Shown one piece after another: positions 47,046 to 60,203 of a stretch of DNA of 64,000 nt. The stretch comes from Physcia stellaris. Lineage: Eukaryota > Ascomycota > Lecanoromycetes > Caliciales > Physciaceae. The position numbers and the translations under genes were made by a program. The first letter of the stretch is position 1. Every line of letters begins with the position of its first letter. Under the pieces are notes generated by a model. It did no database searches. It saw only the letters and a program-made list of their open reading frames with translations, and had not been told where the DNA came from. The DNA lies in the NCBI GenBank assembly GCA_018902385.1, contig JABSSW010000027.1:434001-498000 (forward strand). The letters run 5' to 3'.

Positions 47046-48091
47046 ATGGATGAAGACGGCGGTACCCGACCGAACAGAGGCGTGTGCTATTGGGCTGCAA
47101 GGGTGATGGTTATAAGCTCCAAAGGTGATGACATCCTTTGCCCCCAAGGCTGAATGGTTTTGATGCTCGCAGTAGGCTGGGACAGGCTTCCTCAGGTACG
47201 AGTCCGTATTGCTGACAAGCCGTTCAAAGGTTCCAGCCCCGAGCAGCGTACTCAGCCAACTGCCTCGGCTCTATGCCGCACGATTATCAGCCATGATTTG
47301 TCTCTAGAAAGCCTCAGCAAGAGAGTTGTCGCCACATGCGCCTAGTCCTCTCGCCATGTCTCTCTGTGGAGCTGACGAGGTTTCCAGTGTGTACTGAATA
47401 AGATCATTCTGCCCTCTTTCAGTCTCTTCGTTTCCTGCCCTGCATCTATCGATGTCTACGCTGCAAAGCCCAGCACGAGAGTAATCACCAACATATGTAT
47501 GAACTGTCCCTTCGCCATGTCACCATTATGTCTCTCTGTGGCTCTGACCAGATTTCTATCGTACCGAACGAGATAATTCTGCCCTCTTTGAGTCTCCATA
47601 AGCTCCTCTTCGTTTCTGCCTTTGTATCTATCTCTGTCCACTCAGCTCCCAAGAAGAAGCCTAGCACGTCATACACCATCACCATCACCACTCCCTACGC
47701 CAATCACACACACTCAATCTCACACTCACTCCGCAACCCCCTCAAAAAAACAAAAGGTAAAAAAAGAGCGGAGATTCCCCATCCTTAATTCCTATATGCC
47801 TAACCATCCCCCTTAATCCCAAATCCACCAAACCCCGAAATCTCCAAATATACCGCCTCGAAAAGCCAGAAAGTCAAAAGAAACGGTGCGTCCACCCTTC
47901 GAATCGAAAAATATAAATAGGATTCCCTCGTTCAGAGATCCAGAGTTCCATGGAAAAGAATAGAAAAGTATCCCCAGCCCTTAAGCCATCCCTTATCCTT
48001 TGAAGGCGACGTTATGCATGCTTGTCGTGGACGTCCGATCCGAGACGGATGTGGGAAGGGAGGAGGAGTGGGAAGGGAGGAGGAAGGGGCG
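47046..48091. other. convergent 3' region with imperfect repeat
   Basis: About 1.05 kb between the Ybp1-like stop and the pheromone stop. It contains the imperfect direct repeat at 47351-47669 and AC-rich simple sequence near 47670-47740. Long 3' untranslated regions could fall here; no gene is supported. Confidence 0.4.
47351..47669. repeat. Imperfect direct repeat, about 160-bp period
   Basis: Copy A (47351-47473) and copy B (47512-47669) share, in order, tcgccatgtc, tgtctctctgtgg, gataattctgccctcttt (A: gatcattctgccctcttt), ctcttcgttt, atctatc and agcacg. Copy B has small insertions. Confidence 0.7.
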
Positions 48092-48243
48092 TTACATGAC
48101 TGTGCAGCCGTTCCAGCCGGGGTGGGCTGCGGCTGTTTTGGAGTTAGTAATTGGTATCGAGATAGAAGTTAGAGCAGGAGTGGAGGAAGAAGAGGCTCAC
48201 CAGCAACAGGCGCGGGCACAGTGATCTTAGTCTGAGGCTCCAT
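48092..48243 (-). CDS. a-factor-type lipopeptide mating pheromone precursor (CAAX peptide)
   Basis: Two tiny exons, 48201-48243 and 48092-48132, flank a 68-nt intron with GTGAGC donor, TACTAAC branch and CAG acceptor. They encode 27 residues that end WNGCTVM: a CAAX box (C24, T, V, M) with Met last, which specifies farnesylation, removal of TVM and carboxyl methylation. The N-terminal part (MEPQTKITVPAPVA) resembles the leaders of hydrophobic pheromone precursors of filamentous ascomycetes, such as Neurospora mfa-1 and Magnaporthe MF1-1, which are 23-26 residues and end (N/Y)CxxM. The intron was needed to see it, and it is far too small for usual gene finders. Export would need an Ste6-type ABC transporter elsewhere; the receptor would be Ste3/Pre-1. 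Confidence 0.85.
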
Positions 48244-48790: not shown

Positions 48791-49245
48791 GCTTAGTATT
48801 GTTCTTCCTTCTTCTTCATCAGTATGATATCGCCTTTCACACTCGCTGTTGGTGGCACGTCCGTTTCCAGCATTGGGTAGGTGATGGAATAGCAGTTGAT
48901 GAAGGGCTGCGTCGGTGGCTGCCACGAGGGCTGATGCTACTGTTAACGAAACTAGAAGAACCGGAAACATGAAAGACTGGAGACAGAAAGCCAGAAAGCT
49001 AGAAGATAGAGAAGGTGTGAAAGAAGAAGCTTAGTATTGTTCTTCCCCCCGCATATCCCGTTTCGGACAAGTGAATCCCCACCGTTCTCGAGCAGTATTC
49101 GGTAAGAAAGTAGATCTGGAAACGGAAAATTGGAAACAGAAGGAAAAAAAGGGGTTTGGCATTGGATTCGACTCGAGGGGATGGATGGGTGGGAAGAACT
49201 CGTAGGGCATTCGAGGGGGGAAGAGGGGCTTAATAGTGTTCTTCT
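48791..49245. repeat. Three copies of an 18-nt motif
   Basis: gcttagtattgttcttcc at 48791-48808 and 49029-49046 is identical; gcttaatagtgttcttct at 49228-49245 differs at three positions. In each, the minus strand can be read as Glu-Glu-(Gln/His)-Tyr-stop. Confidence 0.75.
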
Positions 49246-49775
49246 TGAAGGAGGAAGGGGGCGATGAATGCGGTTGTGCGCTTTGGAGTGATTGAGTATG
49301 TTGTTGGAGAGGTGATGGGATTGGGGATAATAGGTAGTGAAGACGAGGAAGAGAAGGTGCTGAGGCTTGGTGATTTATGAGTGGTGGATGGGGCGGTGAT
49401 GGGGATGGGGGAAGGGAATTTCATACTTTGCATTGTTTCTTTTGATGACATCCTTACGATATCATAAGTGTGGATGTGAATCTCTGCCTCCTGTCAAGAT
49501 CAAGATTATGCACTTTTACTACTATCGCTTATCGTGCAAAATGAGGATGCATCTTTAGATATACATACTCAATAGGTCCTTATAGCAGAAAGATCTAAGG
49601 TAATTTGATCACGGCGTCGTGCACAGTCATCTTTCAGGATTTGCTTAGTCATCATATCTGCTTGATATTGTTCCCTCGCCACTGCTATTGTTCTCCCACC
49701 TCATAGCCTCTATTCTCATCATCTAATTCTACTGCTTTCCAATCGCCGCGATACTCGCACAAACCCACTACGTAA

Positions 49776-57749: not shown

Positions 57750-58430
57750 GTGGGCGAGGTGGGTGAAAGTGGGGAATTGGAGGAAACTACTTTGTTTGAC
57801 GGGATGAAACAGGATTCTTTGGGTAAGTCTATTGTGGGCTCGAGAGTCTTTTAGAATGCCATCATCTGACAACTCACAGCTTGAATTGCACATTAGATGT
57901 ACGGTACCCTCTCTACACAGTTTGATTATGTCCTTGGGCTGGAATTCCGTGACCGGCCCATCAGTTGCGAGATGAATCGAGAGGTATCTCGACGACGATG
58001 CAGACGTATACATGGATAGCCGCTTGGACTAAGGTTAATAATAGTGATAATAGAAAAGTATCTGTCAATGTCCTGTGTTTGCTTGAGATAAGGTAGCATG
58101 TGTGACGAGATATGTGATCGATACAGGAATACTGTTGGTCGTGTATTACACCCCAAAGCTGCTGATTAGTCCATCTAGCGAGCCAATCAGAGAAGATGCA
58201 AAGGTCATGCATTACATCATCGAATGACTAAAGCTTCACCCCCGAGACCCCGCATCTTATGCAGCCTCGGAAGGGAGGTCGGAGAAGGTCGAGGTCGATC
58301 GGACAGAAATCAATCGAATACTTCCATTCCTTCCTCTTGTACTCTACATCCTATATTTACCTCGAACGAACCTCATCCTCATCGTCTTGCCATTCCACAC
58401 CCATTTGTTCATCGATAACAAGTACACATC
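57750..58430. promoter_or_regulatory. Upstream region of catalase
   Basis: 681 bp before the catalase ATG; the final 100 bp are C/T-rich. It should contain the catalase promoter; no YRE/Yap1-type site (TTAGTAA/TTACTAA) was picked out by eye. Confidence 0.4.
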
Positions 58431-60203
58431 ATGTCTACTCAGACCAGCGAATCAGGTAACCCTGCCGGCGCGGGCGTCTTCAGAAGTTACGAAGACGATC
58501 GAAACGCCCCCTCCCAAGAGGTTCTTTACACTACCAGCAATGGCGTTCCGATGCCCCATCCATACGAGACCCAACGTGTAGGGACCAACGGGCCACTTCT
58601 CCTCCAAGATTTCCATCTGATCGACCTTCTCTCCCATTTCGACCGTGAAAGGATCCCGGAGAGAGTCGTCCACGCCAAGGGCAGCGGTGCCCACGGTACC
58701 TTCAGATGCACAAAGCCCCTCGACGATCTTTGCATTGCCGACATCTTTAGTAAGGAGGGCAAGGAATGCCCCATCACAGTCCGCTTTTCTACCGTCGGTG
58801 GCGAATCCGGCTCTCACGACTGTGCTCGAGACCCTCGAGGTTTCTCAGTCAAGTTCCGGACTGAAGAAGGCAACTGGGATATGGTAGCGAACAATACGCC
58901 TGTCTTCTTCCTACGGGATCCTGCCAAGTTCCCTCACTTCATCCATACCCAAAAGCGCGACCCTGCAACCCATTTGGGCAGCGCCGATGACTCGACCATG
59001 TTTTGGGACTACCTGTCTCAAAATCCAGAGGCCATCCACCAAGTAATGATCCTAATGGGTGATCGAGGTATCCCGGATGGCTATCGGTTCATGCACGGTT
59101 ATAGCGGACACACCATGAAGCTGGTCAACAAGAACGGAGACTGGGTTTATGCTCAATTCCACATGAAGTCAAACCAGGGTACCAAGTTCATCACGCAACA
59201 AGACTCTGCGACCAAGTCACCAGATCACGCACAGAAAGATCTTTACCAGGCCATTGAGCGTAAGGAGTACCCCTCTTGGAAATGCTGTTTCCAAACAATG
59301 ACCGCCAAGGAGGCCGAAGAGCTTTGGGAGAAGCAGAAGATCAATGTCTTCGACTTGACTCACATCTGGCCTCAAAAGCAATTTCCACTCCGCGAAGTCG
59401 GTGTCTTTGAGCTCAATGAGAACGCGAAGAACTACTTTGCCGAGATCGAGCAGGTCACCTTCAACCCTGCTCACATGGTGCCCGGTCTTGAGCCATCCGC
59501 CGATCCAGTCCTACAGTCTCGTCTATTTTCCTACCCAGACACCCACCGTCACCGTGTCGGCGTCAACTACCAGCAACTTCCTGTGAACTCCACCAGGACC
59601 AAGTACCGAGTTGCCAACTTCCAGCGTGACGGCAACATGGCATTCTACAATCAAGGCTCTCGGCCCAACTACCTCTCCTCCATCGAGCCGATCAGCTTCC
59701 GCAACCGCAGCGTCGATCTCGACAAGGTCCACGGCGAGTTCACCTCCAACGCCGTAACCTTCCTCTCGGAGATCCGCCCGGAAGACTTCAACGCCCCACG
59801 CACCCTATGGGAGAAAGTCTTCGACGAAGACGCCAAGCAGCGCTTCATCTCCAACGTCTCGGGCCACATGTCCACCTGCCGCCACGAAGAGATCCTCAAG
59901 CGCCAAATCGCCATCTTCCGCGAAGTGAGCGACGACCTGGCCACCCGCCTCGAGAAAGCCACCGGCATCAAAGGCTACGACGGCATCGCCAACATGCGCT
60001 TCAACGGCACCCACAACGGCATGGCCAGCAGCGAGAAATTCAAAGTCGCCAACGGCATGAGCGCCAAGGTCGGCCTGTCCGCGCAGCCGAACAATGGCGC
60101 CCCGAGTAAGGGGTTTCATCCGCAGGAGAGCATTGAGAATCCCGGCACGAATGGCACTAGGGTAAATGGTGCTGCTACTTCGAATGGGGTCAATGGGCAC
60201 TGA
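58431..60203 (+). CDS. Small-subunit heme catalase
   Basis: Dismutates hydrogen peroxide to water and oxygen. A 590-residue single exon with all active-site parts: His in RVVHAKGSGAHGTF, the TVGGESGSHDCARDPRGFSV stretch, Asn in MVANNTPVFFLRD, HFIHTQKRDP, NADPH-side region FHMKSNQGTKFI, and the proximal heme Tyr in RLFSYPDTHRHRVG. Length and lack of a signal peptide fit the small-subunit, cytosolic or peroxisomal clade. The C-terminus extends about 60 residues past the core, with GMSAKVGLSAQPNNGAPSKG, and ends NGVNGH; there is no SKL-type peroxisomal signal. Codon use is strongly C-ending, as for a highly expressed gene. Confidence 0.96.
   Translation: MSTQTSESGNPAGAGVFRSYEDDRNAPSQEVLYTTSNGVPMPHPYETQRVGTNGPLLLQDFHLIDLLSHFDRERIPERVVHAKGSGAHGTFRCTKPLDDLCIADIFSKEGKECPITVRFSTVGGESGSHDCARDPRGFSVKFRTEEGNWDMVANNTPVFFLRDPAKFPHFIHTQKRDPATHLGSADDSTMFWDYLSQNPEAIHQVMILMGDRGIPDGYRFMHGYSGHTMKLVNKNGDWVYAQFHMKSNQGTKFITQQDSATKSPDHAQKDLYQAIERKEYPSWKCCFQTMTAKEAEELWEKQKINVFDLTHIWPQKQFPLREVGVFELNENAKNYFAEIEQVTFNPAHMVPGLEPSADPVLQSRLFSYPDTHRHRVGVNYQQLPVNSTRTKYRVANFQRDGNMAFYNQGSRPNYLSSIEPISFRNRSVDLDKVHGEFTSNAVTFLSEIRPEDFNAPRTLWEKVFDEDAKQRFISNVSGHMSTCRHEEILKRQIAIFREVSDDLATRLEKATGIKGYDGIANMRFNGTHNGMASSEKFKVANGMSAKVGLSAQPNNGAPSKGFHPQESIENPGTNGTRVNGAATSNGVNGH

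Follow-up and report, generated by a model that had tools for sequence, protein, structure and literature searches.

Lichen fungi are hard to cross in culture. The locus described here, a very short spliced reading frame on the minus strand of a 64-kb stretch of DNA, raises the question of whether a lichen fungus of the Physciaceae carries its a-factor-type (hydrophobic) mating pheromone gene at this place. Judging from sequence, we consider that it does, with a probability of roughly 0.9. The stretch (C27:434001-498000 of a 44-Mb assembly in 147 contigs) is called the window below. Before a study of 2023 added the Leotiomycetes, the a-factor of filamentous ascomycetes was, according to the account in that study, known from the Sordariomycetes alone (PMC10569646). 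We found no report of a Lecanoromycete a-factor in the open-access literature, preprints being outside the scope of the search, and the consulted portions of two papers on lichen fungi, one on Endocarpon of the Verrucariales (PMC3897900) and one a review (PMC12161586), make no mention of an a-factor. The candidate is very probably a genuine a-factor gene and, within the open-access literature searched, would be the first for the Lecanoromycetes.

A spliced micro-ORF with a CAAX end

The initial annotation had described a two-exon frame of 27 residues with a CTVM end and the signals of a 68-nt intron, and all of these were found at the positions it had given, on the minus strand (Table 1). Translation of the minus strand from the ATG at 48243 to a TAA stop gives the candidate precursor MEPQTKITVPAPVAAAAHPGWNGCTVM (27 residues), which has the start context GAAATGG and whose N-terminus, MEPQTKITVPAPVA, shows no hydrophobic run and no evident signal peptide as judged by eye. 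CTVM stands directly before the TAA and forms a CAAX box with Met as X, the farnesylation type. An alternative acceptor lies 6 nt downstream in frame (CAG/CCGCAG/CCC); its use would make a 74-nt splice and a product of 25 residues, MEPQTKITVPAPVAAHPGWNGCTVM, with the tail unchanged. An RNA-structure scan detected no unusual structure in the candidate RNA (z 0.31), and bacterial promoter and tandem-repeat scans contributed nothing further.

Table 1 Features of the candidate gene and of its upstream region (positions in the window)
Feature	Position	Strand	Description	Found by
Exon 1	48201..48243	-	43 nt; codes MEPQTKITVPAPVA and the first base of a split Ala codon	sequence and translation
Intron	48133..48200	-	68 nt; donor GTGAGC, perfect branch TACTAAC at 48149-48143, acceptor CAG	
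Exon 2	48092..48132	-	41 nt; codes ...AAHPGWNGCTVM, then TAA; CAAX box CTVM at the C-terminus	
TATA-like TATTTAAA	48389..48396	-	146-153 nt upstream of the ATG	sequence
Element copy 1, AGAACAATACTAAG	48792..48805	-	inside an exact 18-nt repeat	
Element copy 2, AGAACAATACTAAG	49030..49043	-	exact 18-nt repeat of copy 1	
Degenerate copy, AGAACACTATTAAG	49229..49242	-	2 mismatches	
Copy GAACAATATCAAGC	49660..49673	-		repeat search and pattern match
Weak copy, GAACAATAGCAGT	49681..49693	-		repeat search

The predicted tail was compared with a-factors of other ascomycetes. Synthetic a-factors of Fusarium are given as QKPGYPLSCTVM for F. graminearum (PMC9769807) and ANGQTPGYPLSCTVM for Fo-a (PMC11077750) in the available parts of the two reports. 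Like them, the candidate has Pro-Gly-aromatic before the CAAX Cys and the same CTVM (AAHPGW-NG-CTVM against PGYPLSCTVM), although it differs in having Trp for Tyr, one residue fewer from the aromatic residue to the Cys and an Ala/Pro-rich leader, and in coming from the class Lecanoromycetes (PMC9769807, PMC11077750). Its Gly-Trp (PGWNGC) stands where known a-factors have Gly-Tyr, a frequent but not universal motif. GY is reported for 87 a-factors of Leotiomycetes, and at least 111 species have homologues (PMC10569646). With the putative a-factors of that study the candidate has in common the CTVM, their commonest end, and the need for a search independent of BLAST, and most of them were likewise unannotated; on the other hand, theirs are 45-64 aa long, Ser/Thr-rich at the N terminus and usually carry GY, whereas the candidate is 27 aa long, Ala-rich and carries GW (PMC10569646). 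The hypocrealean h-type precursor HPP1 of Trichoderma resembles it in the farnesylation-type box at the end, with the motif (L/I)GC(T/S)VM, but HPP1 holds three copies of its motif and two Kex2 sites, and the candidate has none (PMC3068285).

Rarity of the design and surroundings of the locus

How rare such a frame is was examined with a search for two-exon ORFs of 20-45 aa having a GTRNGY donor, a YTRAC branch, a YAG acceptor and the end C-[AVILMTSGF]-[AVILMF]-M. The candidate was the sole locus of this design in the 64-kb window (both acceptors count). Seventeen other loci of the genome, 170 kb in all, had none, and neither did 400 shuffled versions of the window with the dinucleotides preserved. 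The peptide matched the 44-Mb assembly once, at the candidate locus itself. A protein search with the extended 51-aa frame, which detects proteins of ~28-89 aa sharing three 5-mers, gave no homologue, and degenerate DNA patterns of the peptide had 0 matches in viral and 0 in prokaryote collections, which hold little fungal DNA. Fungal genomes are scarce in the collections used for the homologue searches, and gene prediction seldom yields short spliced peptides.

The candidate lies alone in the intergenic stretch between a plus-strand YBP2/Alf4-like gene (end 47045) and a minus-strand PLD-like gene (end 49776), and has an upstream region (~1.5 kb) and a promoter of its own. The neighbours of the Sordariomycete a-factor locus are cyanate lyase and EBP2; both families were absent among the 30 window ORFs scanned, out of 57 of at least 150 aa. 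A catalase gene at 58419-60203 has a best match of 93%, with 90% identity to Heterodermia aff. obscurata, 87% to Dirinaria and 83% to Usnea, and Heterodermia belongs to the Physciaceae (Lecanoromycetes, Caliciales); by this one gene, the lichen fungus falls in or near the Physciaceae. Inspection by eye also showed a short direct repeat, tgtctctctgtgg..ctgac, 3' of the Alf4-like gene, at about 47357-47376 and 47529-47548, ~170 bp apart.

Mating type of the isolate and genes of pheromone processing

The genome contains both a STE3 and a STE2 receptor gene, and the MAT1-1 alpha-box gene (MAT1-1-1) is present at the MAT locus (L036, C4:734000-743999). The matched stretches of STE3, STE2 and MAT1-1 have no internal stops. 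HMG-box matches number nine in the genome, none of them on the MAT contig C4, and MAT1-2-1 was not found there, which suggests a MAT1-1 strain of the heterothallic type. In such an isolate the candidate gene would be expected to be silent, and lack of the transcript in a MAT1-1 culture would therefore be no refutation. This corrects the initial annotation, which had taken the lack of a spliced transcript in any condition, together with a lack of conservation in close relatives, as a refutation.

As for the processing enzymes, the best match of RAM1 (C60) is a chain named CaaX farnesyltransferase beta subunit Ram1, while BET2 and CDC43 are two geranylgeranyltransferase beta genes, of the Rab type (C11) and of GGTase-I (C28), respectively. 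A fourth prenyltransferase beta place, on C73, is a weak match. ICMT/STE14 has one match in the genome (C35).

The pattern WC...GQ.C, of the alpha-factor repeat type, occurs in the whole genome at four single places, none of them in a coherent repeated precursor frame. A different gene, seen by eye in the sampled locus L025 (C49:109209-119208; minus strand, about 6300-5580), is like that of a secreted precursor in having three repeats around CEGEGC/CEGAGC and a putative signal peptide; an intron splits the first Cys codon of each repeat, and KAR-like sites lie between the repeats. The predicted product looks like a protease-processed repeat peptide, either alpha-factor-like or RiPP-like.

A repeated element upstream of the candidate

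A repeat search upstream of the candidate detected an 18-mer, GGAAGAACAATACTAAGC when read along the gene's strand, in two identical copies at a distance of 238 bp, and further copies at 83% and 72%. The 14-mer AGAACAATACTAAG has 13 places in 44 Mb when at most one mismatch is allowed, and the reversed-pattern control has 26. As the reversed control is the commoner of the two, the informative part is the placing of the 14-mer and not its frequency: two of the 13 places are at the candidate, one at STE2, one (exact) at an ABC-B transporter gene, one (exact) at a gene for a small secreted protein and eight elsewhere. No mating link was found for these eight when 13 neighbouring ORFs were scanned. 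The refined pattern GAACAATNNNAAGC has 41 places in the genome against 18 for its reversed control, namely three at the candidate, three at STE2, one at RAM1, one at STE14 and 33 elsewhere; it was fixed only after the RAM1 and STE14 sites were known, so that its counts describe and do not test. One of the 33 falls within the weak prenyltransferase match on C73. Most of the genome matches to the element must be chance.

Five copies of the bare sequence GAACAAT stand in the 312 bp before STE2, and another five in 1 kb upstream of the candidate (0.48-1.45 kb from its ATG). These two clusters are the densest in the 234 kb sampled, 11 of the 17 sampled loci having been chosen because they bear a site.

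The gene for the small secreted protein (MLIPTTLLLSLSLPLL...; L025:4246-4776, minus strand), which gave no Pfam match, has its exact element 321 bp before the ATG and is possibly a further MAT1-2-regulated gene.

The element at partner genes and at controls

At STE2, the 14-mer site (at most one mismatch) lies 627 bp before the ATG. An exact 14-mer is located 236 bp before the ATG of the ABC-B gene (L024), which encodes a full-size transporter (membrane and ATPase domains, two of each); this site ends in AAGG and is outside the refined pattern GAACAATNNNAAGC. The set of genes co-activated in Podospora includes RAM1 and a methyltransferase gene (see below), which led us to predict the element at RAM1 and STE14 and then to examine them. 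For this, ~2 kb of upstream sequence was taken for RAM1, STE14, BET2 and CDC43. The RAM1 site, GGAACAATAGTAAGC, and the STE14 site, GGAACAATGCTAAGC, each have two mismatches from the 14-mer, for which the background is 0.015 two-mismatch sites per 2 kb (200 permuted motifs, 257 kb). The RAM1 site is closely followed by an in-frame ATG at L046:1671, with another ATG at 1872, and the STE14 site lies 126 bp before the ATG (L047:552).

The ~2-kb upstream regions of BET2 and CDC43 contained no 14-mer within three mismatches, and that of CDC43 had two bare GAACAAT cores. The 10-kb locus of STE3 had no 14-mer within two mismatches and no GAACAATNNNAAGC, and held five bare GAACAAT cores. No GAACAATNNNAAGC was found at the MAT1-1 locus, where one two-mismatch 14-mer site (L036:1078) lies inside an ORF. 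The element is therefore common to the promoters of the candidate, STE2, RAM1, STE14 and the ABC-B gene, and its full form is missing at the alpha-specific STE3.

Reading of 26 matched stretches gave roughly eight full-size transporters, the ABC-B gene among them. Scores against PDB chains, in which the sole chain named a-factor exporter is 7qkr, a STE6-2 protein of Komagataella, did not single out the L024 gene as the Ste6 orthologue: it was not closer to 7qkr than two paralogues were. The bit scores for the best animal transporter versus 7qkr were 408 versus 351 for L024, 1114 versus 983 for the paralogue on C7 and 691 versus 591 for that on C32, values that come from unequal stretches of the three genes, with the L043 paralogue left out and the 5' regions of the paralogues hardly covered. 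The names of database relatives were no help for the Ste6 assignment either. From architecture and promoter only, the ABC-B gene may be placed in the Ste6 class, an assignment at the level of class.

A putative a-specific circuit

AACAAT is a site of SRY/SOX-type HMG proteins, and three T stand at the center of the MAT1-2-1 consensus sites known from Fusarium, Neurospora and Podospora, as described in the consulted part of PMC10512297. The element has an AACAAT core and differs from this published consensus. We think it fairly probable that one HMG-like element, GAACAATNNNAAGC, marks a complete a-specific circuit made up of the a-factor, STE2, RAM1, STE14 and a dedicated ABC-B exporter; the departure of the element from the published MAT1-2-1 consensus slightly lowers our confidence in this.

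In such a circuit, an HMG-box mating-type protein in MAT1-2 cells would bind the element and turn the a-specific genes on together. The candidate precursor would be made from the spliced transcript and farnesylated on its Cys by Ram1/Ram2, after which TVM would be trimmed and Ste14 would carry out methylation. Cleavage would occur within the Ala/Pro-rich leader, HPGWNGC being just one option for the mature peptide, and the mature lipopeptide would be exported by the ABC-B transporter and sensed by Ste3 on MAT1-1 cells.

Alternative explanations

The reading of the locus as an a-factor gene, already proposed in the initial annotation, gains support from the presence of STE3 in the genome, from the occurrence of the element also at STE2, RAM1, STE14 and the ABC-B gene and not at STE3, BET2 and CDC43, and from the Fusarium-like tail of the predicted peptide. 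It has to be weighed against the possibility that the promoter is truly regulated by mating type but drives a non-coding RNA or some other short transcript, the CTVM frame being a coincidence. Indeed, the identity of the transcript does not follow from the element alone. However, the spliced CAAX frame is unique in the window and absent from the 400 shuffles and the 170 kb, a TATA-like box precedes it by ~150 nt in a fitting orientation, and the RNA structure is ordinary, and we consider a coincidental frame improbable. Slightly less probable still, in our estimate, is a genuine small prenylated peptide with a role outside mating. CAAX ends also occur outside pheromones; seven Leotiomycete genomes have from 2 to 12 short CAAX-ended proteins each, by the counts in the available part of PMC10569646, but a non-mating role fits poorly with an element that is common with STE2, RAM1, STE14 and the ABC-B exporter gene and with a PGW..CTVM tail like that of Fusarium.

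The locus, which comes from a single isolate, might also be a decayed a-factor relic in a lineage that is asexual or disperses mainly as clones. The start, the splice sites, the CAAX box and the promoter elements are nevertheless intact, and so are, as far as internal stops are concerned, the matched stretches of STE3, STE2 and MAT1-1, making a relic the least probable of these alternatives and a very improbable one. We regard the locus as very probably a genuine a-factor gene. A defined peptide together with a defined promoter element would make lichen mating directly testable, and the common element offers a second, sequence-independent criterion for finding a-factor genes elsewhere, which are nearly featureless. 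If the reading is true, the combination of the element at STE2 with a spliced CAAX micro-ORF could reveal the a-factors that are missing from other classes, the Eurotiomycetes and Dothideomycetes among them.

Comparison with known regulatory systems

In Podospora mat+, the lipophilic pheromone gene, PRE2 (of the STE2 type), RAM1, the gene for protein-S-isoprenylcysteine O-methyltransferase and STE6 are upregulated, being activated by FPR1, the MAT1-2 HMG protein of this fungus, and STE6 is only weakly significant (PMC3125171). The naming in the available text is inconsistent, as the regulated methyltransferase is called STE24 and STE14 appears elsewhere among the unregulated genes (PMC3125171). 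The element-bearing genes of the lichen fungus (STE2 type, RAM1, methyltransferase, ABC exporter) correspond to this FPR1-activated set (PMC3125171). On the other hand, the Podospora HMG consensus is (A/G)ACAAAGAA, with ATCAAAG at both pheromone genes and, in the consulted part of the report, PRE2 without the core (PMC3730723), so that the core motif differs from ours, and the evidence in the lichen fungus is from sequence alone. The gene set would thus agree with that of Podospora, while the site does not. If the putative circuit is real, block-wise positive control of a-specific genes would predate the split of Lecanoromycetes and Sordariomycetes, and the site itself would have changed. A comparable arrangement is described for the ancestral yeast state, in which the a-specific genes were under positive control by MATa2, the switch to repression in yeast coming afterwards (PMC2253631). 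The lichen system differs from it in that the binding protein is a predicted one, and would resemble it in having its a-specific genes under positive control as a group (PMC2253631).
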